From positions 1 to 27,959 of IMG/VR virus record IMGVR_UViG_3300018432_000039: a stretch of DNA of 27,959 nt. The stretch is one strand, 5' to 3'. Of this stretch, positions 2,652 to 20,228 are shown one piece after another. The stretch's first letter is position 1; each line of letters starts with the position of its first letter. The translations under genes and the position numbers were made by a program. The DNA is from a virus. The notes under the pieces were generated by a model. The model searched no databases. It saw only the letters and a program-made list of their open reading frames with translations, and was not told the origin of the DNA.

Positions 2652-3368
2652 TCACGCCTCGTTTGTGGTGACCGTGCCGGACGCTGTGACGATGCGCTTG
2701 CCGGTCCCGGGCAGCGGCACCGACTTCGGCCAGCGCGATCCGCCTTCACCGCCGATCAGTCGGTTTTTCGCAATGCGCGCGACGGAAATCGCGTTCGACT
2801 GATTGCCGCCAAGCACGTGATAGAACCCGGCCTTGTCCTCACCGACATAGAACCCGACGTGCCCGCTGGTGCCATTCTTCGCGCCGCGCCAGAAGATCAG
2901 GACCGCCCCGAACGTGGGCGGCGTATAAACACCCATCTTCGACCAGTTGCGCGCCAGATAGGGATTCGCCGGCAGGATTTCGTTCGGGCAGGTCAGCGCG
3001 ATGCACGTTTCGACCAGATCACCACACCATGGAAGCTTGCGCGGATCGCCCAGCCGGCGGCCGTCACTCGCAAGGAACTTCGACAGTTCGGTGAAATCCT
3101 TTTCTTCGTGCAAGCCTTTCTTGCGCAGGCACAGATCGATCCACGGCGTCATCGTGGTGATCGCTTCATCCTTCGCGGCGACCGGCTTGCTGTCCGCGGC
3201 CTGCAACGCGCGAAGCGTTTCCGGCCCCACGATCCCATCGACCAGAATGCCCCGCATCTGCTGGAACATCTTCACCGCGCCGATCGTCTGGCGGCCATAG
3301 ACTCCATCGATATCGCCGGGATCGCATCCCAGCGCTTTCAGCCGCTCTTGCAGTTCCCGCACCTTCAT
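2652..3368 (-). CDS. Endolysin: PG-binding domain plus NlpC/P60-like (TIGR02594-type) domain
   Basis: A 238-residue cell-wall hydrolase. Residues about 3-56 are a PG_binding_1 domain (VRELQERLKALGCDPGDIDG, then YGRQTIGAVKMFQQ and VDGIVGPETLRAL). After a linker, residues about 74-215 match the TIGR02594 cysteine-hydrolase type: TPWIDLCLRKKG, then KLPWCGDLVE with the likely nucleophile Cys115, then a Gly-rich FGAVLIFWRG and SGHVGFYVG with the likely catalytic His170. No signal peptide is visible, so it should need a holin to reach the wall; the adjacent two-helix gene fits. AAGGGGA precedes the ATG. Whether it cuts the peptide or the amide bond cannot be told from sequence alone. Confidence 0.88.
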   Translation of the reverse strand: MKVRELQERLKALGCDPGDIDGVYGRQTIGAVKMFQQMRGILVDGIVGPETLRALQAADSKPVAAKDEAITTMTPWIDLCLRKKGLHEEKDFTELSKFLASDGRRLGDPRKLPWCGDLVETCIALTCPNEILPANPYLARNWSKMGVYTPPTFGAVLIFWRGAKNGTSGHVGFYVGEDKAGFYHVLGGNQSNAISVARIAKNRLIGGEGGSRWPKSVPLPGTGKRIVTASGTVTTNEA

Positions 3369-3383
3369 CGCAATCCCCTTCGG

Positions 3384-4598
3384 TTATGATTCGCCGGCAA
3401 CGTCATCGGACGGCGTGACATTCTGCAACGGCTCAATCGGCGGCACCACCGGATTCCCCGGCGTCGGCTTTTCCGGCAACGGCTGCCCGGGCTTTGTCAC
3501 CGGGTCCCACCATTGCTTATAGGTGCTCGCGTCCAGCGACGGCTGCGCCACATCGCACCGCGTCGTGTAGCCGCCCCCGCGCGTGTAGACGTGCTGCGCT
3601 TCCTTGATCCGATAGGTGCCGTCGACTCCGGGACGCGCGCCGGTGATCTGAACCCGACCGCCGCCGCGGGCTTGCGGTTCGCCGTTGAACAGCACCCATC
3701 CCGTGCCGCGCTCGCGCTCCGATTCCGCGCCAAGTCCGCCGGCGATCTGCCCGGCATTGTTAGCGTTCGCTTGCGGCCCCGGCTGCATAGCCGTGGCGTT
3801 CGCACCACCGAATGGCGTTTCACCGCCGATCGACTTCGATGCCGATTTCCATGCACCGCTTAGGATATTGAAGTGCTGGCTTTTCGCGCCGGAATACTGC
3901 GGGCGCGCGGTGAACGGTTTGATGCGCCACGCAATCAGGTTGTCGCCCCACTCCGCTGCGACGATCGCCGTGGGCGTGCCATCCGCCGCGAAGAATTCGG
4001 TCGCGCTGGTCAAGCTGACCTGATTGCCGGAAATCTTGAAGATCGCCCCCAGTTCGCGCTGCTGTTGCAGGCCCCAGTGATGGAACGACGAATTGATGTA
4101 CCAGTAATCTTTTTGCTGACCGCCCATCGATCCGATGTTCGCGGAAAGCCCGGCCTGCTTTGCAAACTTGCCGAACACTTCCGACATGGAAACCATCTTC
4201 GCCGGGCCGTCCGGTGGCTGGCCTTCACCCATCGACATTTGAATGGGCGACTTTCCCGGCCCCTTCATGTCAGCGCCGGTCGCTTCGATCCATAGCCGAC
4301 GGCCACCGCCCTTTCGACTGAACCCGGACTCCACACTCGACACCACGCCGTCGAACACCGCGCGCGTGCCTTCGCTGCGCCATCCCAGCCGCACGCTGAC
4401 CGGCGCACCATCAGGCGGGATCGCAAGCTGCGCGTTGCGGTCGTCTAATTCCAGCGAACACGTGTCAACTTCGCCGCCCTCCTTATCGATCACCGTGACG
4501 CTGATCAGATAAGGGTCGAACGCTGCCGTCACGTCGCGGCCATCGACGATGATCTTGCAGAATGCGCGGACCCGGTGCGACTGCGCGAACGGAGGCAT
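3384..4598 (-). CDS. D: Baseplate hub protein, P2 gpD-like (late control D)
   Basis: A 404-residue protein of the P2 gpD / phage late control D family, the hub at the base of contractile tails that holds the spike and caps the tube. The N-terminus (FCKIIVDGRDVTAAFDPYLI, VTVIDKEGGEVDTCSLELDD) with PVSVRLGW and AVFDGVVSSVES is the characteristic first domain; a second part follows (MSMSEVFGKFAKQAGLSANI). The length is close to P2 gpD (about 387). The C-terminus ends in a Pro-rich tail. It follows gpX with two bases between stop and start, and U-X-D order matches P2-type tail operons. The start follows a GGAGG-poor leader, but there is no better choice. Confidence 0.9.
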   Translation of the reverse strand: MPPFAQSHRVRAFCKIIVDGRDVTAAFDPYLISVTVIDKEGGEVDTCSLELDDRNAQLAIPPDGAPVSVRLGWRSEGTRAVFDGVVSSVESGFSRKGGGRRLWIEATGADMKGPGKSPIQMSMGEGQPPDGPAKMVSMSEVFGKFAKQAGLSANIGSMGGQQKDYWYINSSFHHWGLQQQRELGAIFKISGNQVSLTSATEFFAADGTPTAIVAAEWGDNLIAWRIKPFTARPQYSGAKSQHFNILSGAWKSASKSIGGETPFGGANATAMQPGPQANANNAGQIAGGLGAESERERGTGWVLFNGEPQARGGGRVQITGARPGVDGTYRIKEAQHVYTRGGGYTTRCDVAQPSLDASTYKQWWDPVTKPGQPLPEKPTPGNPVVPPIEPLQNVTPSDDVAGES

Positions 4599-4864: not shown

Positions 4865-5293
4865 TCACACCAGAAAGCTGTAAAGTTCGCTGAAATGATC
4901 CCGCGCATCAGGCACGGGATGCCGCACGAACACCGTTTCGAATTCGATCTTTCCGCCGATGCCCGTTTCCACGATGTTTGTGTGTTTGCGCACCAGCTTT
5001 TCGATCAGATACCAGCCCAGCCCGCGGCCATCGCCAAGCATGATATATTCGATCAGTTGCGCGCGCCGCATCTGTTCCATCACGTCAAGGCTGTGCAAGC
5101 CCTTGCCGCGCAGCGAATATGGGAAGATGCGCCCGCGGATGTATAATTCCTCGTCGCCTTCCCCAACCCACTCGCGATAATACGGCGACCCGGCGATTTC
5201 CTTTTTCGCCCAGTCCGATTGCGTCATGTGATCCATTTCATGATAGTTCAACGGATACACTTCAAATTGCAAAGGCCCCCAACTGGCGAGCAT
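4865..5293 (-). CDS. U: Tail protein U (P2 gpU-like)
   Basis: A 142-residue protein of the P2 gpU family. It starts MLASWGPLQFEVYPLNYHE, a standard opening (FEV.P.N), and contains GSPYYREWVGEGDEELYIRG, RIFPY and GLHSLDVMEQMRRAQ, matching the family pattern of a G-E-G-D-E turn and a helix before the GDGRGLGWYLIEKL strand. GpU is a small contractile-tail assembly protein acting near the tail end. It normally follows the tape measure directly, but here the GIY-YIG gene lies between them, with one base between that gene's stop and this ATG. Confidence 0.9.
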   Translation of the reverse strand: MLASWGPLQFEVYPLNYHEMDHMTQSDWAKKEIAGSPYYREWVGEGDEELYIRGRIFPYSLRGKGLHSLDVMEQMRRAQLIEYIMLGDGRGLGWYLIEKLVRKHTNIVETGIGGKIEFETVFVRHPVPDARDHFSELYSFLV

Positions 5294-5294
5294 G

Positions 5295-5957
5295 TTATTG
5301 TTTTCCTTCGTGTTTTTGGCGCGGCATCGCGGGTTTCGCTTTTCGCGTGCACTTCGCGCGATATTCCGGATCGGTCCACAGCCGGCGCATGATTTCGGCG
5401 CGCCTTGCCCCTTTGCTCGGATCGTTCGCGAAGCTTTTTGTTAATGCCTTCCCTTGTCGCTTTCGCGCCTCCGGTGTTCGCCCGGCCTTCAGCCCCGCGG
5501 CCATCGCTTCGCTTGTTTGCATTGCTCGCTTCACGCCGTCGGAAATCCGCTTCCTGACTTCCGGTCGGCCCAGACTGACCCGGATTGTCGCGGACATTTG
5601 CTCGCGAAACTCCGGTGATCTGCGCCGCTCCAGTTCCGCTTCGCTCATTCCGCCCAGCCCGCCGGGTCGAACATTCCACAGTTGCCCCGGCGCTGCGACG
5701 GCGATCAGGTTGCGTTCCAGATCGAACGCGGCGGTGTCTGTTAATCCATCGGACAGTTTGCGCGCGGTGACCGTTGCGCCATCCTCGATTGCGCGGATCA
5801 GCCGGTGATGGAACACGCCGCTGCGCACCGTTTCGCCATCAGCGCGCCGGCGTTGAATACGCCGCACGGCGCGCATGTGATCGTCGATGCGCCATCCCTT
5901 GCCCTTGCCGATGTAGCGCACCACACCGTCCACTTCGATGATGTAGACATAAGCCAT
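5295..5957 (-). CDS. Free-standing GIY-YIG endonuclease (homing type)
   Basis: A 220-residue protein starting at ATG 5957, one base after the tape-measure stop. The N-terminus shows the nuclease core: YVYII at residues 3-7, RYIGKGKG at 14-21, an Arg (23) on the following helix, and a likely metal-binding Glu81 in FDLERNLIAV, followed by LWNVRPGGLGG like the LxN..GGxG of GIY-YIG homing enzymes. The C-terminal half holds repeated basic helices (SPEFREQMSATIRVSL, RPEVRKRISDGVKRAM, TPEARKRQGKALTKSF, WTDPEYRAKCTRKAK) resembling NUMOD3 DNA-binding modules. It presumably makes a sequence-specific cut and spreads itself among related phages. It interrupts an otherwise fixed T-U gene order. A longer in-frame ATG (6473) inside the tape measure is rejected as out-of-frame reading. 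Confidence 0.88.
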   Translation of the reverse strand: MAYVYIIEVDGVVRYIGKGKGWRIDDHMRAVRRIQRRRADGETVRSGVFHHRLIRAIEDGATVTARKLSDGLTDTAAFDLERNLIAVAAPGQLWNVRPGGLGGMSEAELERRRSPEFREQMSATIRVSLGRPEVRKRISDGVKRAMQTSEAMAAGLKAGRTPEARKRQGKALTKSFANDPSKGARRAEIMRRLWTDPEYRAKCTRKAKPAMPRQKHEGKQ

Positions 5958-5958
5958 T

Positions 5959-8900
5959 TCAAGCCGCACCGATGTCAGCGTAGGAGTCCCAGCGGGACTC
6001 GCGGACTTCGCGATTGACTTCACGTCGCGCACTGGCGCGGCGGAACTGCGGCACAAGCTGGCTGGGCGGGCTGGGCGCTTCGATCGAAGGCCGGATCGGC
6101 GCTTCCAGTTGCCCGCGCAGTGCCGTCCATTGATCAGCCGCTGGGCTTGTCGCACCAGCGCCAGCGCCAGCGCCGGCTGCCGGGCCTGCCCCGACCGGTC
6201 CAGCGCCAGCAGCGGGATCACTATTGCCGGCGGCAACCGGCGGCGGCGCGGGCGCAGGGCGTGCCGCTCCAGCAGCCAGCGGCCCAGTTGCACCGGGCGC
6301 GCCGCCGCGCCCGATCTGTGATTGCCGCCGCGCGATCGATTGTTCATAGGCGTTGCCGCCCTTGCCCCATGCGTCCGTCGTCTGGCCACCGCGGTTGATT
6401 GCGTTTGATGCTCCGGTCGCACCGCCGCTGTGCGCGTGCCCCAGCATTTGCAGCTTCCGTTCAGGCGACGCATCGCGATAGGCCTGACTCTTTTGCATCA
6501 TCGTGCGGTGGTTTCCGCGCGTGTAGGCGTCCAGAAATCGTTCCTGCTGTTGCGGATTGCCGCGGAAGGCTGCGCGATCCGGCACGCCTTCGCCAAGCGC
6601 GCGCGCCGCGTCTGTTTTTGCCGCGCCGCCCATCTGATACGCGCCATCGAAATTCCCGCCTGCCCCGCCCTTCGCGCTGTAATCCCCGCCGCGGCTTTCG
6701 ATATCCGCCAGCCCTTGGCGGTAGGCGTTCCATTGTTCCGGGCTGACTCCCAGTTCGTTCGCCGTCATGCCGCCGGCAGCGCCGGGCAGCTTAGCGCCGG
6801 GGGCGGCAGGTCCGCCATGCGGCTGCCCGGGCTTCGCTGCGCCCAGAAATGGATTCTTCGGTCCGCCATCGTCCGGCACCGATGCCTTCGGCGCACCCGG
6901 ATCGGCCTTGCCCGACGCGATAGCCTGATTGCGTTGCAGCGCCGCCTGCGCCTTCGCCGGATCATGAACTTCGAAGTGACCGCGATCCGGATTGCGCCAC
7001 GTCGCGCCCGACCGCAGGCCCCACTTGTCCGCCAGCGCGTTTTCCGCCTCCACCCCGCCCGGAAGCCCGCTGCTGACTTTGTTGCGGGCGCTCATATTGA
7101 TATCGATCGCCCGGCCTCCATCCTTGCCGTGATTGCTTTGGATGTTCGTGCCGGCGATGTTTCGATCATTGAACCCGCCGATCGAACTGATGTTGCCGCC
7201 CTGCGCCGTGTAATCGTTCAGGAAGCCGCGGAAGTTTTCCGCGTGCGCCGAACCGACGGTGACCTTTTTGCCCCCGGGGCCGATCAGTTGCGTCTGGTTG
7301 CCCATGGTTTTATTGACGCGCCATGCGCCTTCCCCGCCGCCTACGCCGCCCGCTGTAGCGCCTGCCGCTGCGCCGGCTCCACCCATAGGCCCGGGCGCTG
7401 CGCCTCCACCAGCGCCGCCCCTGCCCCCGCCTGCGATCGCGCCGCCGCCTGCTGGCGTACCACCACCACCACCACCACCGCCGCCGCCACCGCCACCGCC
7501 GCCACCTGCCGCTGTGCGCGCCGCTGCCGCGGCGGTGCCAACCCCGCGACGGAATACACCAGTGCCGCCTGAACCGGGCGCACGCCTTCCCCCGCCACCC
7601 GATGGCGCTGTTCCGCCGCTGGGCGCTGCGCCTCCACCCGACCCGTCACCGGTGCCGAACGGGAAGCCCGCGCCGCCGGTGCCCGGGTCCACCCCGCCGC
7701 CTCCACCGCCTCCGCTAAACGCCGCAGGCGATGCCCCGCCGCCCGGCGTGAACCGCGGCAGGCCGCCGAAGCGGCCGACCGGTCCGCGCGATCCGCTCCA
7801 CGTGCCGCCGCCGCCCGTGAAGTTCATCTTTTTCGGGCTGGTGTCCTCGACTTCCTTGGCGGCCTTGTTCAGTTCGTCGGCCAGCGCACGCGCGGCCTTC
7901 GCGGCATCTTCCTCTTGCTTCAACCGGCTGCGCATCGCCTCCAGTTGCCGCTGATCTGCGCCTTTCTGTTCGGCTTCGGTCAGCAGCCGGCGCTGTGTCT
8001 GGACGTTGAATTCACGACGCTTTGCCGTTTCATCAGCCAAGCCGCGGCCGTGGCCTTGCAGCTTCGTGGCGTCATCACTTAGCCGTTCCTGCAATGCCGG
8101 CCCCAGATCGCCCATCGCTTCATCGAAGGCGGCCTTCGCGCCTTTCTGGCGCAGCGTCTGGATATACTCCAGCGCCCGGCCGATCCGCTCCAGTCCCTTG
8201 CCGACCGACTCGATCAGGAACGTCGCGCCGGATAAGTTCGCGACCCGCACAAGCTGATCGGATAGCGTCGAAACCGAATTCGTTAGCCGTTGCCAGTTCG
8301 CCTGCGCATCCTTCCCGACCACACCGAACGCCTTGTCAACCTGACCGGCGGAATCGCGCACGTTGTTCAGTTGCTTGATCATTTCTTCGCGCTGCGAAAG
8401 CATGCTGCGAACGCCCTGCTGAACCTGCAAATCGCCGAAGATTTCATTGATGCGCGAAAGGTCGCCGCGAAGCGCGCTGTTCGTGATCCCTAGGAACGTC
8501 GCCAGCACATCTTGCCCGGCGTTGCGCGCAGCCTTTAGCTGTTCGCGCAGATCGGACACGCCCATATCCTTGAACTTTTTCACCACTTCGTCGCTGGTCA
8601 TCTTTTGCAGCACGTTTTGAAGCTGTGTCGCCGCTTCGCTGCTGCTGCCGGCCGTGTTGCGCATCGTCTGGAGTGTCGCGACCAGAACCTGCAAACCCTC
8701 CGCACCCTTGTAACCCTGCGCCGCGAAAGCGGACAAAAGGCTGGGCAGTTCCTTCGCCATGTCAGCGATTTCGAACATGCCTTCATCGGCCGACTTCGCG
8801 ATGATATCGAACGCGCCGGCCATATCCTTGACTTCGATCTTCAACTGCCGGTTCATCGCGCCGGCGGTTTTCGCCATATCCTCCACGCTCGCGCCCGTCG

Positions 8901-9357
8901 CCTGCGCAGCCTTCGCGACCTGCGGCATGAACGCCATCATTTCTTCCAGCGATCGACCGCCCTGCGATGCCAGCGATTTCAGCCCGGCCGTGACTTCCGC
9001 GATCGGCAGGCCCATCGTCTGCGCGATCGACTGGATTTCGTTGCGCACCTTTTTCATATCGCCGGCGCTTGCGTTGGCGACCACCTGAATCCGGGATAGC
9101 TCGCGATCGAACGCCGCCATGTTTTCCACGGCCCGCTTGACCGCCGTGCCGCCGGCCAGCACGCCGAAGGCCTGACTCATGTTGCGGCCCATCGTGGCCG
9201 CGCTCGCACTCGCGCGCTTTGTGTTTGCTTCGATCTGCGCGGTGGTGCGCGCCATTTCTTGCTGGAACTGGCGGGCGTTGCGGCTTGCGGACTGAAACGC
9301 GCGGGCGGTTTCATCCTTGCCGCGAAGAATGAGTCTTGCTTCGTGGTCGTTTGCCAT
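5959..9357 (-). CDS. T: Tail tape measure protein with M15-like and lysozyme-like domains
   Basis: A 1132-residue tape measure in the P2 gpT position, setting tail length and probably helping DNA entry. Residues about 1-420 match the phage minor tail/tape measure core (ARLILRGKDETARAFQSASR, then AAFDRELSRIQVVANAS, QTMGLPIAEVTAGLKSLASQ, PSLLSAFAAQGYKGAEGLQV). About 430-510 are helical and charged. About 512-677 are extremely Gly-rich, including 16 consecutive Gly (618-633). About 680-800 look like an M15-type peptidase: SNHGKDGGRAIDIN with His743 and Asp752, then Trp787 and GHFEV with His794 and Glu796; the His-Asp spacing is two residues longer than usual. About 865-1010 look lysozyme-like (GLADIESRGGDYSA with Glu887, FDGAYQMG). 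A Pro/Ala-rich tail follows. The two enzymatic domains are inferred from motifs. Confidence 0.92.
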   Translation of the reverse strand: MANDHEARLILRGKDETARAFQSASRNARQFQQEMARTTAQIEANTKRASASAATMGRNMSQAFGVLAGGTAVKRAVENMAAFDRELSRIQVVANASAGDMKKVRNEIQSIAQTMGLPIAEVTAGLKSLASQGGRSLEEMMAFMPQVAKAAQATGASVEDMAKTAGAMNRQLKIEVKDMAGAFDIIAKSADEGMFEIADMAKELPSLLSAFAAQGYKGAEGLQVLVATLQTMRNTAGSSSEAATQLQNVLQKMTSDEVVKKFKDMGVSDLREQLKAARNAGQDVLATFLGITNSALRGDLSRINEIFGDLQVQQGVRSMLSQREEMIKQLNNVRDSAGQVDKAFGVVGKDAQANWQRLTNSVSTLSDQLVRVANLSGATFLIESVGKGLERIGRALEYIQTLRQKGAKAAFDEAMGDLGPALQERLSDDATKLQGHGRGLADETAKRREFNVQTQRRLLTEAEQKGADQRQLEAMRSRLKQEEDAAKAARALADELNKAAKEVEDTSPKKMNFTGGGGTWSGSRGPVGRFGGLPRFTPGGGASPAAFSGGGGGGGVDPGTGGAGFPFGTGDGSGGGAAPSGGTAPSGGGGRRAPGSGGTGVFRRGVGTAAAAARTAAGGGGGGGGGGGGGGGGTPAGGGAIAGGGRGGAGGGAAPGPMGGAGAAAGATAGGVGGGEGAWRVNKTMGNQTQLIGPGGKKVTVGSAHAENFRGFLNDYTAQGGNISSIGGFNDRNIAGTNIQSNHGKDGGRAIDINMSARNKVSSGLPGGVEAENALADKWGLRSGATWRNPDRGHFEVHDPAKAQAALQRNQAIASGKADPGAPKASVPDDGGPKNPFLGAAKPGQPHGGPAAPGAKLPGAAGGMTANELGVSPEQWNAYRQGLADIESRGGDYSAKGGAGGNFDGAYQMGGAAKTDAARALGEGVPDRAAFRGNPQQQERFLDAYTRGNHRTMMQKSQAYRDASPERKLQMLGHAHSGGATGASNAINRGGQTTDAWGKGGNAYEQSIARRQSQIGRGGAPGATGPLAAGAARPAPAPPPVAAGNSDPAAGAGPVGAGPAAGAGAGAGATSPAADQWTALRGQLEAPIRPSIEAPSPPSQLVPQFRRASARREVNREVRESRWDSYADIGAA
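7459..7506 (-). repeat. GGN trinucleotide repeat encoding 16 glycines
   Basis: Sixteen successive GGT/GGC codons in the tape measure gene. The end of the run in transcription order is seven identical GGT codons (7459-7479), a true microsatellite; the rest alternate GGC and GGT. Slippage in threes would change linker length without breaking the frame. On the other strand it reads as poly-proline, which is a shadow. Confidence 0.85.
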
Positions 9358-10680: not shown

Positions 10681-12216
10681 TTAGACTGCCATATTCAACT
10701 GCGCTTCCAACTGCTTCACCATCGCATCGATCGCCGGCCGATACCTTGCGGACTCGGTGGTGATCTTGCGCAACACTGGCGCTTCCTCGGCCGCGAAGCT
10801 GACCGTCAAATGCCCCAGTCGGATTTCCTCGGCACTGTTCTGTGATCCGCGGAAGTGGACCTTGAATCCCAGAATGTGTTCGTCGGCCATCAGGTCGCGA
10901 AGGAAGAAGTGCATCGTGTTCAGGATGGCTTTGATCGTGTGACCGGTGATGTTGAATCGGCCCAGATACGATCGCAGCGTCCGGATCAGGCCAAGGTGGA
11001 TATAATCCCGGCCGCGCGTGACGTTGTAAAACATCCACAGCGGATCGTCGGTGGCCACGTCGGTGCCCACGAAAATGAACCCGCCAGAAGAAATCGCGAA
11101 GTCATTGCCGACTTCACCACGCACCAGAATTCCGATGTTCGCGGACAAAAGCGACTGACCTTCGTTCGCGCCGTCCACGATGCTGAACTTCATGTCGCGC
11201 GCCGGGCCAAGGATGCCTTGAATCGGCTGGTTCGCCCACGAATGGAAGGGCGCACCCTTTTCGTGATCCCGGCGCACGGCGACGCCAAGGATGCGCGGCG
11301 CAAGCGGCCGGATCAGAATGTTGCCGGTTGCCGGGTCCATGATCCGGCAGCCGCCGCTGATCGGGATGATGCGCTGCGAATTGATCGTTTCGCGCCAGTC
11401 CTTGTCGGCGACTTCGGATGATCCGGTCGACTCGACCACCGCATGCGCGACAAGCTGGTTCAGGATGCTGGTCAGCGAAGCGACGATCGGATTTGCACCG
11501 ACGCTGATGGTGGCCGTCGCGGTTGCGGTAACAGCACCGCCGCCGGCTGGAGGCGCTTCGATCGCGACCGTCGGGGCCGACGTGTACCATGCGCCATAGC
11601 TATCGATCACGATATCGTTCGTCGTGATTTCGCCATCGGTGTTCGCGACCGCGTGCGCCGTCGCCTGAACGATCGTCGCGTTTGTGCCGCCCCCGGTGAA
11701 GGTGACGGTATAGGTTTCATTCGGTTCATAGCCTTCGCCGATCGTGTTCACGGTCAGCGTGCCAAGGCTGTTTGCCATCTGCCCGGTATAACCCGGGGCG
11801 GCGATCAGGCGCGGCGTCACCGCCAGCTTGTCCGGCGCTTGCAGGAAGGCGGAAAGGCCGGTGCCCTGCAAACTATCGCCCATGATGTTCGCGATGGTCT
11901 GTTGCAGCTTCACGGCCGGGTCGGCGTTCGTCCCGGTCGCCGTGCGCACGATCACCATGCGCGCCGCCGACTGGAATTCGCCAAGCTGGTCATTGATGCC
12001 GCGGATCGCGTCGGGCAGGTATCCCAGCGCCCCCAGCTTTTTCAGCTTCGTGGTGTCGTTTGAATAGATCAGCACCGGCGTGTTCAGCGGATAAACCGCG
12101 GCGTCGGCTTCATCGGCCGGCCCGATCAGACCGATCGTGGACATATCCGCGCCGATGACGGGCCGCGGCTCGTGATCGATGCGGCGAATGACGATACCGA
12201 ATACCGGATCAGACAT
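10681..12216 (-). CDS. FI: Tail sheath protein (P2 FI-like) with inserted domain
   Basis: A 511-residue contractile sheath protein, longer than P2 FI (about 396). The N-terminus (HEPRPVIGADMSTIGLIGPA, with PLNTPVLIYS and LGYLPDAIRGI) and the middle (RILGVAVRRDHEKGAPFHSW, ANQPIQGILG) are sheath-specific; the C-terminal half (YLGRFNITGHTIKAILNTMH, FFLRDLMADEHILGFKVHF) is the conserved interlocking domain. Between APGYTGQ (141-147) and ANPIVASL (241-248) lies an extra segment of about 95 residues of Thr/Ala/Val/Gly-rich beta character (GEGYEPNETYTVTFTGGGT, then APTVAIEAPPAGGGA). Removing it restores a continuous sheath sequence. AAGGGA precedes the ATG. It contracts to drive the tube through the envelope. 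Confidence 0.95.
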   Translation of the reverse strand: MSDPVFGIVIRRIDHEPRPVIGADMSTIGLIGPADEADAAVYPLNTPVLIYSNDTTKLKKLGALGYLPDAIRGINDQLGEFQSAARMVIVRTATGTNADPAVKLQQTIANIMGDSLQGTGLSAFLQAPDKLAVTPRLIAAPGYTGQMANSLGTLTVNTIGEGYEPNETYTVTFTGGGTNATIVQATAHAVANTDGEITTNDIVIDSYGAWYTSAPTVAIEAPPAGGGAVTATATATISVGANPIVASLTSILNQLVAHAVVESTGSSEVADKDWRETINSQRIIPISGGCRIMDPATGNILIRPLAPRILGVAVRRDHEKGAPFHSWANQPIQGILGPARDMKFSIVDGANEGQSLLSANIGILVRGEVGNDFAISSGGFIFVGTDVATDDPLWMFYNVTRGRDYIHLGLIRTLRSYLGRFNITGHTIKAILNTMHFFLRDLMADEHILGFKVHFRGSQNSAEEIRLGHLTVSFAAEEAPVLRKITTESARYRPAIDAMVKQLEAQLNMAV

Positions 12217-17936: not shown

Positions 17937-20228
17937 TTAGCTGGCCACATAGGTGACTTCGGACACCACCGGCAGTTCGGTCACGTCGGTGGTCGCGCCG
18001 TCGGTGATCGGCCTGATCGAAGTCGTGGAAGGCACCGTGAATGACGCGCGGCGCTCCACGATCCCCGGGATATCTTCCCGATCGCTGGTCGCAGTCGGAT
18101 TGTAGACCGTCCCGCCGCCCGCCGGTGTCCACAGCTTCGGCAGAATGTCATGCTTCACTTCATCGAAGTTTTCGATGACGGTCAGCGTTTCAACGGCGGT
18201 GGAGGCGGCAGCAAGGGTGCGCGTCGCCGACACGTGCCGCATCGCAGCCGCGGGCCGTGTCACCTTCACTTCCGAACCGGTCAGGTTGATTCCGACTTGG
18301 TTGGCGCGCGTGCCTTGCATGGTCAGACGAATGCTGGTCTGCGCCGGAAGGCCGACGAACGGGTTCGGCCCGCCCGGTTCGAACATATACCAGTTCGGCG
18401 AACCAACCGGGCGGAACTCCCATTCCGCCTTCGCGGACTGCGGCACCACCATGTCGGCCAGAATGTCGATCGAAGCGAGACCGCCAGCCAGTGCAACCGG
18501 CGTGAATTCGATCACCGTGCGCTGATGCGCGAACGCGCAAATCCCGAAATCGATCAGGAAGTTGTGGGAAGGATCGTTCTGCCAGAAGTTACCGACCGAA
18601 CGATAGAACAGCGTGCCGTCGGCGTAATCCAGCGCCGTGGTGACCGAAACGAAATGGTTGCCGGGCGTGATGACGGCGAAGCCATACACCTTGCCGGATT
18701 CCAGATAGGTCGGCGGGAACGGATAGCGGAAATTGATGATGCCGCCGGTGTCCAGCTTAAGCTGCGCACGCGGCACCGTGGTGATCCCGATCACGCGGTT
18801 CATGTCGGGCGTGCCGTCATCGCGCGTTTCGCAGATTGCGAACGTCACGTCACCGGACACGTCAAGCCGCGGGAAGTTCACGCCCCACGAATTGATCCAC
18901 ATATCCTGCGAAATGGTCAGCGTTTGCACCCACGCATAGCCACCATAGCCGACGGCCGGCGGGCTGGTGCGGTTCCAGTAGGGCGATCCACTAACGTCAC
19001 CCCATTTTTTCGACACGCGATAGAGCACCGTCCCGGTGACGGCATCGATCTGGTTCGTCGGCAGCGCCTGAAAAATTTCGCCGGCCTTTTCGAAGATGCC
19101 GCGTTCAACGTCGATCCAGCGTCCGCTGCCCCACCAGTTCGATGACTGAGCGACAAAGAATTCCGCACCGAACCGGACGCGATGCCGGGCCATGTCGGAA
19201 ACGACGATCGAACTGGTCAAATAATTGAACTGGTTTAGCGCCACCGATCCATCGTTCGACCGGATCGGGCGGGCGCGCAGTTCGGTGTAGACCGGCAGGA
19301 TCAGACCGTTGTCGTGTTCGATGAATTTGTCATCGGTCGGATTCGCCAGCGTCAACGGCGCGCCGTTTGCGCCATTGCTGGCCGCGTTCGGGAAGCGCAG
19401 GCCTTCCATGATTTTTGCCGCATAGCCGGCGAATCCGGTGTCGGTTTCCAGCAGATCAAGGAAATAGTCGGTGCCGTAGTCAGTCGCATCGTCCGGCAGA
19501 TCGACCTTCGCCTTCACGCGCGCCACGTCGCGGGCGACGCGGTTCACATAGGTCTGCGAAGCCTTCGTGCGCAGTTCGTTCGCCAGCCTCGAAATGTCGC
19601 CTTCCAGCGTTTCCAGCCGGGCGTTCCAGCGATCCATTTCAAGGCCCAGCAGATAGGCCATGTTGTAGACTTCGCGCACGCTCTTGACGCGGTTCAGGTC
19701 GATCATCTGGATCGACAGAACGCCGGTCGAATCCAGTGTGACATAGGCGATCGCCAGCAGATTATCGGCGATCACCTTCGGCGTCGGCGACGCTGATTCG
19801 TTGCCCAGTTCGAACGATACTGATGCAAGCCGCCAGTTTTCAGTCGCGTGCGGTCGCGCTTCGGTGACGCGGGTCACCACGTCTTTCAGGAATTCGCGAT
19901 CCTCCACGCGGGCGTTCTGCCCCTCTGGAGGCGCGCCCGAAACGACGATCGTGGCGATCCGGCGGGTCGCAATCGGCAGATGCTGCTGGAAGGAAATTTC
20001 CGCGGCCTGTTCGGTGAAAAACACCGGGCCGGCGTTATACATCGCGCCCGGCGCGACGATCACAGTGAAGGGCGGGCTTTCGGTGACATTGAACCCGGAA
20101 AAGGCCTTGCCCGGTTCGATGCCATCCTTCGAAATTCGGTCAAGCGAAGCGCGGGTGAAACCGGCTTGCGTGTTGTAATCTTCGGCGGTCGCCTTCTGAA
20201 AGTCGCTCCACCTGACCTGCTTTTCCAT
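17937..20228 (-). CDS. Large tail protein (DUF4815-like), probable fibre/baseplate appendage
   Basis: A 763-residue protein following gpI, where P2 carries its fibre gene H. The N-terminus (QVRWSDFQKATAEDYNTQAG, VTESPPFTVIVAPGAMYNAG) resembles the DUF4815-type opening of baseplate-attached proteins. Residues about 200-245 are a coiled coil (LLGLEMDRWNARLETLEGDI). The middle and C-terminal parts are beta-rich (MWINSWGVNFPRLDVSGDVT, YLESGKVYGFAVITPGNHFV, TSIRLTMQGTRANQVGINLT), of the kind seen in fibre adhesion domains. It probably links baseplate to receptor-binding tips. The family assignment is from resemblance, not a diagnostic motif. AAGGGCGAG precedes the ATG. Confidence 0.8.
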   Translation of the reverse strand: MEKQVRWSDFQKATAEDYNTQAGFTRASLDRISKDGIEPGKAFSGFNVTESPPFTVIVAPGAMYNAGPVFFTEQAAEISFQQHLPIATRRIATIVVSGAPPEGQNARVEDREFLKDVVTRVTEARPHATENWRLASVSFELGNESASPTPKVIADNLLAIAYVTLDSTGVLSIQMIDLNRVKSVREVYNMAYLLGLEMDRWNARLETLEGDISRLANELRTKASQTYVNRVARDVARVKAKVDLPDDATDYGTDYFLDLLETDTGFAGYAAKIMEGLRFPNAASNGANGAPLTLANPTDDKFIEHDNGLILPVYTELRARPIRSNDGSVALNQFNYLTSSIVVSDMARHRVRFGAEFFVAQSSNWWGSGRWIDVERGIFEKAGEIFQALPTNQIDAVTGTVLYRVSKKWGDVSGSPYWNRTSPPAVGYGGYAWVQTLTISQDMWINSWGVNFPRLDVSGDVTFAICETRDDGTPDMNRVIGITTVPRAQLKLDTGGIINFRYPFPPTYLESGKVYGFAVITPGNHFVSVTTALDYADGTLFYRSVGNFWQNDPSHNFLIDFGICAFAHQRTVIEFTPVALAGGLASIDILADMVVPQSAKAEWEFRPVGSPNWYMFEPGGPNPFVGLPAQTSIRLTMQGTRANQVGINLTGSEVKVTRPAAAMRHVSATRTLAAASTAVETLTVIENFDEVKHDILPKLWTPAGGGTVYNPTATSDREDIPGIVERRASFTVPSTTSIRPITDGATTDVTELPVVSEVTYVAS

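Follow-up and report, generated by a model that had tools for sequence, protein, structure and literature searches.

The window, by which we mean the whole 27,959-nucleotide stretch of IMG/VR virus record IMGVR_UViG_3300018432_000039 that was analyzed, carries a 1132-residue open reading frame on its minus strand. The product matched two tape measure profiles far above their curated cutoffs, PF10145 (1.1e-24; 87.9 bits versus a cutoff of 33.2) and TIGR01760 (1e-19; 70.8 versus 28.8), and also matched phrog_34270 (5.9e-64). By these profile matches, the product of 5959-9357 is a TP901-type tape measure protein. Its parts are as follows, the linkers and the C-terminal end having been read from the sequence.

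5959-9357, minus strand: tape measure protein gene, 1132 aa
8158-9357, minus strand: tape-measure core, residues ~1-400, with 80 relatives in IMG/VR and others in Rhizobium phage PPF1 and Microcystis phage yong2
7330-7821, minus strand: Gly/Ala/Pro-rich linker, residues ~513-676
6952-7293, minus strand: domain A, predicted M15-like zinc peptidase, residues ~689-802 (PF13539, Ply500 profile, AlphaFold2/Foldseek)
6763-6951, minus strand: Pro/Gly/Ala-rich linker separating domains A and B, residues 803-865
6325-6762, minus strand: domain B, predicted lysozyme/lytic-transglycosylase-like domain, residues ~866-1011 (phrog_5867, AlphaFold2/Foldseek)
6124-6324, minus strand: Ala/Gly/Pro-rich linker, residues 1012-1078
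5959-6123, minus strand: C-terminal end of the tape measure, residues 1079-1132, and stop codon

Upstream of the tape measure gene is one for the tail sheath (10681-12216, minus strand), and genes for P2 gpU-like (4865-5293) and gpP-like (3384-4598) proteins lie downstream, so that by its predicted gene content the phage is contractile-tailed. Relatives were found in phages that infect Rhizobium, Bradyrhizobium, Aurantimonas or Microcystis, which makes a Gram-negative host likely.

Several other features of the window were recorded. The sheath is 49% identical to that of Microcystis phage Mae-JY30, and other genes lead to alphaproteobacterial phages. A 763-residue protein of unknown function (17937-20228, minus strand) matched phrog_17470 at 1.6e-156 and is of a type common to Bradyrhizobium phage BDU-MI-1 and Aurantimonas phage AmM-1. 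Beginning one base past the tape measure stop codon, and before the gpU-like gene, is a GIY-YIG-like reading frame of the homing-endonuclease type (5295-5957, minus strand; phrog_314 at 1.8e-6 and a weak PF22945 match). The protein encoded at 2652-3368 (minus strand) has a PG_binding_1 match at 5e-19, a weak CHAP match, and phrog matches annotated as baseplate hub/tail lysozyme and endolysin; it may be a third wall enzyme of this phage. Two plus-strand reading frames, 6430-7572 and 7259-7954, appear to be shadow frames of the GC-rich coding strand, and weak Phage_tail_APC and SOSS matches were set aside as chance.

Domain A and its His-Asp spacing

The initial annotation had described, at 7320-6310, an M15-type peptidase pattern (His743, Asp752, His794) followed by a lysozyme-like pattern with Glu887. 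Residues 680-1016 do map to this segment, and the four named residues are where they were said to be; they are near-invariant among the 41 aligned domain A sequences and the 47 aligned domain B sequences. Residues and folds both agree with the predicted order, an M15-like peptidase and then a lysozyme/transglycosylase-like domain. Asp791, the fourth residue expected in the active site, was missed in that annotation and is present as part of a DxxH motif, so that domain A has the full M15 set of two His and one Asp zinc ligands plus the catalytic acid.

7129-7131, minus strand: H743 codon, predicted Zn ligand (H in 41 of 41 aligned sequences)
7102-7104, minus strand: D752 codon, predicted Zn ligand, H-x8-D spacing (D in 41 of 41)
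6985-6987, minus strand: D791 codon, predicted catalytic acid/base of DxxH (D in 40 of 41)
6976-6978, minus strand: H794 codon, predicted Zn ligand (H in 40 of 40)

Searched alone (residues 676-823), domain A matched PF13539, Peptidase_M15_4, with an E-value of 4.4e-4 and 21.2 bits, short of the curated cutoff of 25 bits. A profile of the domain A family matched Ply500 (2vo9) at 3.5e-7, as well as LysB4 and ChiX, all of them L-Ala-D-Glu peptidases or endolysins. Structure prediction, which had been proposed earlier as a check on both regions, gave a confident AlphaFold2 model of domain A (pLDDT 94.4, pTM 0.90), and the top three Foldseek matches, LysB4, Ply500 and VanX, were the sole plausible ones, at modest E-values against the PDB (about 2e-2, none below 0.016) and with an rmsd of 5-6 Å, as for domain B. 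By tblastn, relatives of domain A were found within Rhizobium-phage tape measures, where the PF13539 match reaches 1e-16. Other hits were to records of rhizobial plasmids and to a short "lysin A" in Rhizobium phage RHph_N65. Patterns built directly from one sequence at a time picked up nothing in viral contigs; relatives there were recovered only with family alignments. The profile and model comparisons support a LAS/M15 fold and a predicted zinc peptidase. Because of the H-x8-D spacing and the PF13539 score below cutoff, we call domain A M15-like rather than a typical M15 domain.

The H743-D752 spacing is indeed two residues longer than H-x6-D, which is the spacing in the remaining 40 aligned sequences. 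(Apparent spacings of 11-14 in a regular-expression search of domain A relatives were artefacts of an upstream His; the true spacing in these is H-x6-D.) From this spacing it had been proposed that the domain might be divergent or inactive. If domain A were a decayed, non-catalytic M15 fold, serving as a structural or wall-binding module and leaving the cutting to domain B alone, then the odd spacing and the sub-cutoff PF13539 score would both be explained. We consider this unlikely, since all four active-site residues are present, the local pLDDT is about 95, and the closest relative of domain A, here called L173, has the same spacing. L173 is 62-65% identical over the domain, reads H-AKEGGRAI-D, and keeps all four active-site residues; between the two, dN is 0.38 and dS 0.94. 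Divergence in spacing thus stands, and inactivity has become the less likely part of the earlier proposal. The sharing of the x8 spacing with L173 points to a trait of a subfamily and argues against simple decay. Outside domain A, L173 has no further similarity to the window, suggesting that domain A moves between phages.

Domain B and its lysozyme-like fold

Domain B matched phrog_5867, annotated as endolysin, at 1.9e-24, and segments 41-46% identical to it occur in cyanophage baseplate-region proteins. Across the 47 aligned sequences, E887, Y893, G905, Y907, Q908, N949, H976, G979 and D995 are invariant.

6697-6699, minus strand: E887 codon, predicted catalytic acid in IES (E in 47 of 47 aligned sequences)

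Lytic transglycosylases have the motif order ES / GLMQ / AYNAG. Domain B has the catalytic-Glu ES motif (E887-S888) followed by GxxQ (G905-Y907-Q908), and the order in its family, ES / GxYQ / AHNQG, resembles that of the lytic transglycosylases. The third motif is AHSGG in the window and AHNQG in 43-45 of the 47 sequences.

Sequence searches of Pfam, NCBIfam and the PDB with domain B gave nothing usable, so fold comparison was applied. The AlphaFold2 model (pLDDT 89.9, pTM 0.87) matched MltE (probability 1.00, TM 0.62), phiKZ gp144, Slt, the phi6 lysin and goose-type lysozyme, with E-values against the PDB of only about 1e-3, and it also matched many viral SLT/LT_GEWL proteins. Pfam SLT (PF01464) matched neither the window's domain B nor its 46 relatives, and for this reason the domain is labelled lysozyme/LT-like rather than SLT; PF06737, Transglycosylas, gave weak matches in 9 of the 47 sequences. 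The model comparisons support a lysozyme-superfamily fold with predicted glycan-cleaving activity. That domain B might bind glycan without cleaving it, leaving domain A as the active enzyme, is suggested by the AHSGG variant of motif III and by the lack of an SLT match; we regard this as improbable, given that E887, Y893, Q908, N949, H976 and D995 are all retained and that the best fold matches are active transglycosylases.

Origin and recurrence of the cassette

The searched enzyme domains were absent from all 80 of the nearest tape-measure cores in IMG/VR. The core is followed by 732 residues here, versus a median of 262 in the 80 relatives, and the PPF1 and yong2 tape measures are short (606 and 672 aa) and matched neither domain A nor domain B. 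By these comparisons the A+B cassette is an addition to the core, bounded by Gly/Ala/Pro-rich linkers.

Elsewhere both domain families recur with other wall enzymes in baseplate-region, tape-measure and lysin proteins. The partners of domain B are M15_4 (in reverse order, in a contig described below), M15_3, M23, Amidase_2 and Amidase_3. Of 76 domain A representatives, about 21 join it to an SLT-like, NNPGN, DPBB-like or glucosaminidase-like domain, and many of these two-domain representatives are long, tape-measure-like proteins. In four of the tape-measure-like proteins (L092, L107, L181 and L197) and in others, the M15 domain is followed by a domain that looks like an RlpA double-psi barrel (GSWFG...QTDIGP...GRGIDIT); DPBB_1 (PF03330) failed to confirm it, and we keep the DPBB-like identity as tentative. 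In another four (L094, L096, L174 and L175) an NNNPGN domain lies immediately N-terminal to M15. The assignment of this NNPGN domain is likewise tentative because its matches, to an endolysin (7q47) and the virion protein Gp29 (9vvp), are weak. One phage protein, L027, has domain B, Amidase_2 and M23 together, i.e., three wall enzymes.

A broader reading would be that tape measures repeatedly gain interchangeable cassettes for wall entry, each pairing an M15-like peptidase with a glycan-acting domain drawn from several unrelated kinds (the B type seen in the window, or SLT-like, NNPGN, DPBB-like or glucosaminidase-like). The window would then hold one such cassette, with an active H-x8-D metal site, while the 80 relatives recovered for its core have none. 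We offer this tentatively and give it a little less than an even chance.

Proposed entry model and comparison with known systems

The best explanation of the computed architecture, homology, folds, active-site conservation and absence of the cassette from core relatives is probably that a TP901-type tape measure of a contractile-tailed phage has an added C-terminal cassette of ~550 residues, whose two predicted enzymes open peptidoglycan at entry. The core would set tail length. The cassette would consist, in order, of a flexible linker, the M15-like zinc peptidase, a linker, the lysozyme/lytic-transglycosylase-like domain and a linker. Tape measures are virion proteins, and we infer that the cassette would be present in virions with both domains catalytically active, domain A as an L-Ala-D-Glu or similar stem-peptide endopeptidase. 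The predicted timing follows sheath contraction, when the tape measure would be first out of the tail; domains A and B would then open the peptidoglycan locally, cutting peptide and glycan bonds, and make a passage for the tube or the DNA.

Tape measures can be processed; the C-terminal part of λ gpH, for example, is cut off before ejection. General knowledge of this kind leaves some room for the idea that domains A and B serve virion assembly or maturation, or are removed before ejection, with no part in wall passage. We think this very improbable, as the recurrence of both families with other wall enzymes in baseplate-region, tape-measure and lysin proteins argues against it and for the entry role.

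Phage tail proteins with two-enzyme pairs have been described before, each half of the present pair has, by sequence similarity, many relatives among phages, and it is the combination of M15-like and lysozyme/LT-like domains that is new. One known pair is in CwlP (YomI) of the Bacillus subtilis prophage SP-beta, which we take to be a tape-measure-type protein. In a 2017 review's entry on it, CwlP is described as a muramidase plus endopeptidase and placed as "probably tail" (PMC5380687; Sudiarta et al. 2010, cited there), and on that description the initial annotation was too narrow in naming single muralytic domains as the known case for tape measures. The review as a whole gives five two-enzyme virion lysins, all from phages of Gram-positive hosts (PMC5380687). 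Going by the same entry, CwlP resembles the present protein in being one large tail protein with two different wall enzymes, its muramidase being SLT-like. It differs in having M23 and a Gram-positive host, whereas here the peptidase is M15-like, the lysozyme-like domain is of another branch, and the phage is contractile-tailed with a host that is probably Gram-negative.

Rhizobium phages RHEph10, RHph_N1_10 and B1VFA likewise have an M15_4 domain inside a tape measure, 33-36% identical over domain A, but there the M15 domain was found alone, with the standard H-x6-D spacing and on another core (TMP_3). In cyanophages S-WAM1 and S-B05, domain B (about 41-46% identity) has Amidase_2 or M23 beside it as a further wall enzyme; the partner enzymes are thus different, and these baseplate-region proteins have no tape measure annotation. 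IMG/VR contig 3300005613_000671 (L028) has the A and B families in one protein, but in the order B then A, and no PF10145 match was found in that contig. Piuri and Hatfull showed or noted that tape measures can have motifs of peptidases or transglycosylases, with a role in stationary-cell entry (PMC1796659), and VldE, a pneumococcal protein in which the Mt3 motif recurs, is a zinc L,D-endopeptidase (PMC11667670). The Mt3 motif of mycobacteriophage TM4 is alike in being a tape-measure wall-hydrolase motif shown to aid entry into stationary cells (PMC1796659), while Mt3 and its homologue VldE differ in being single enzymes of another sequence family. In sum, the window would extend two-enzyme entry machinery, with a different pair of enzymes, to a contractile-tailed phage whose host is probably Gram-negative. 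It supplies two new predicted catalytic domains and a testable case of why phages would need both glycan and peptide cuts across a thin wall.
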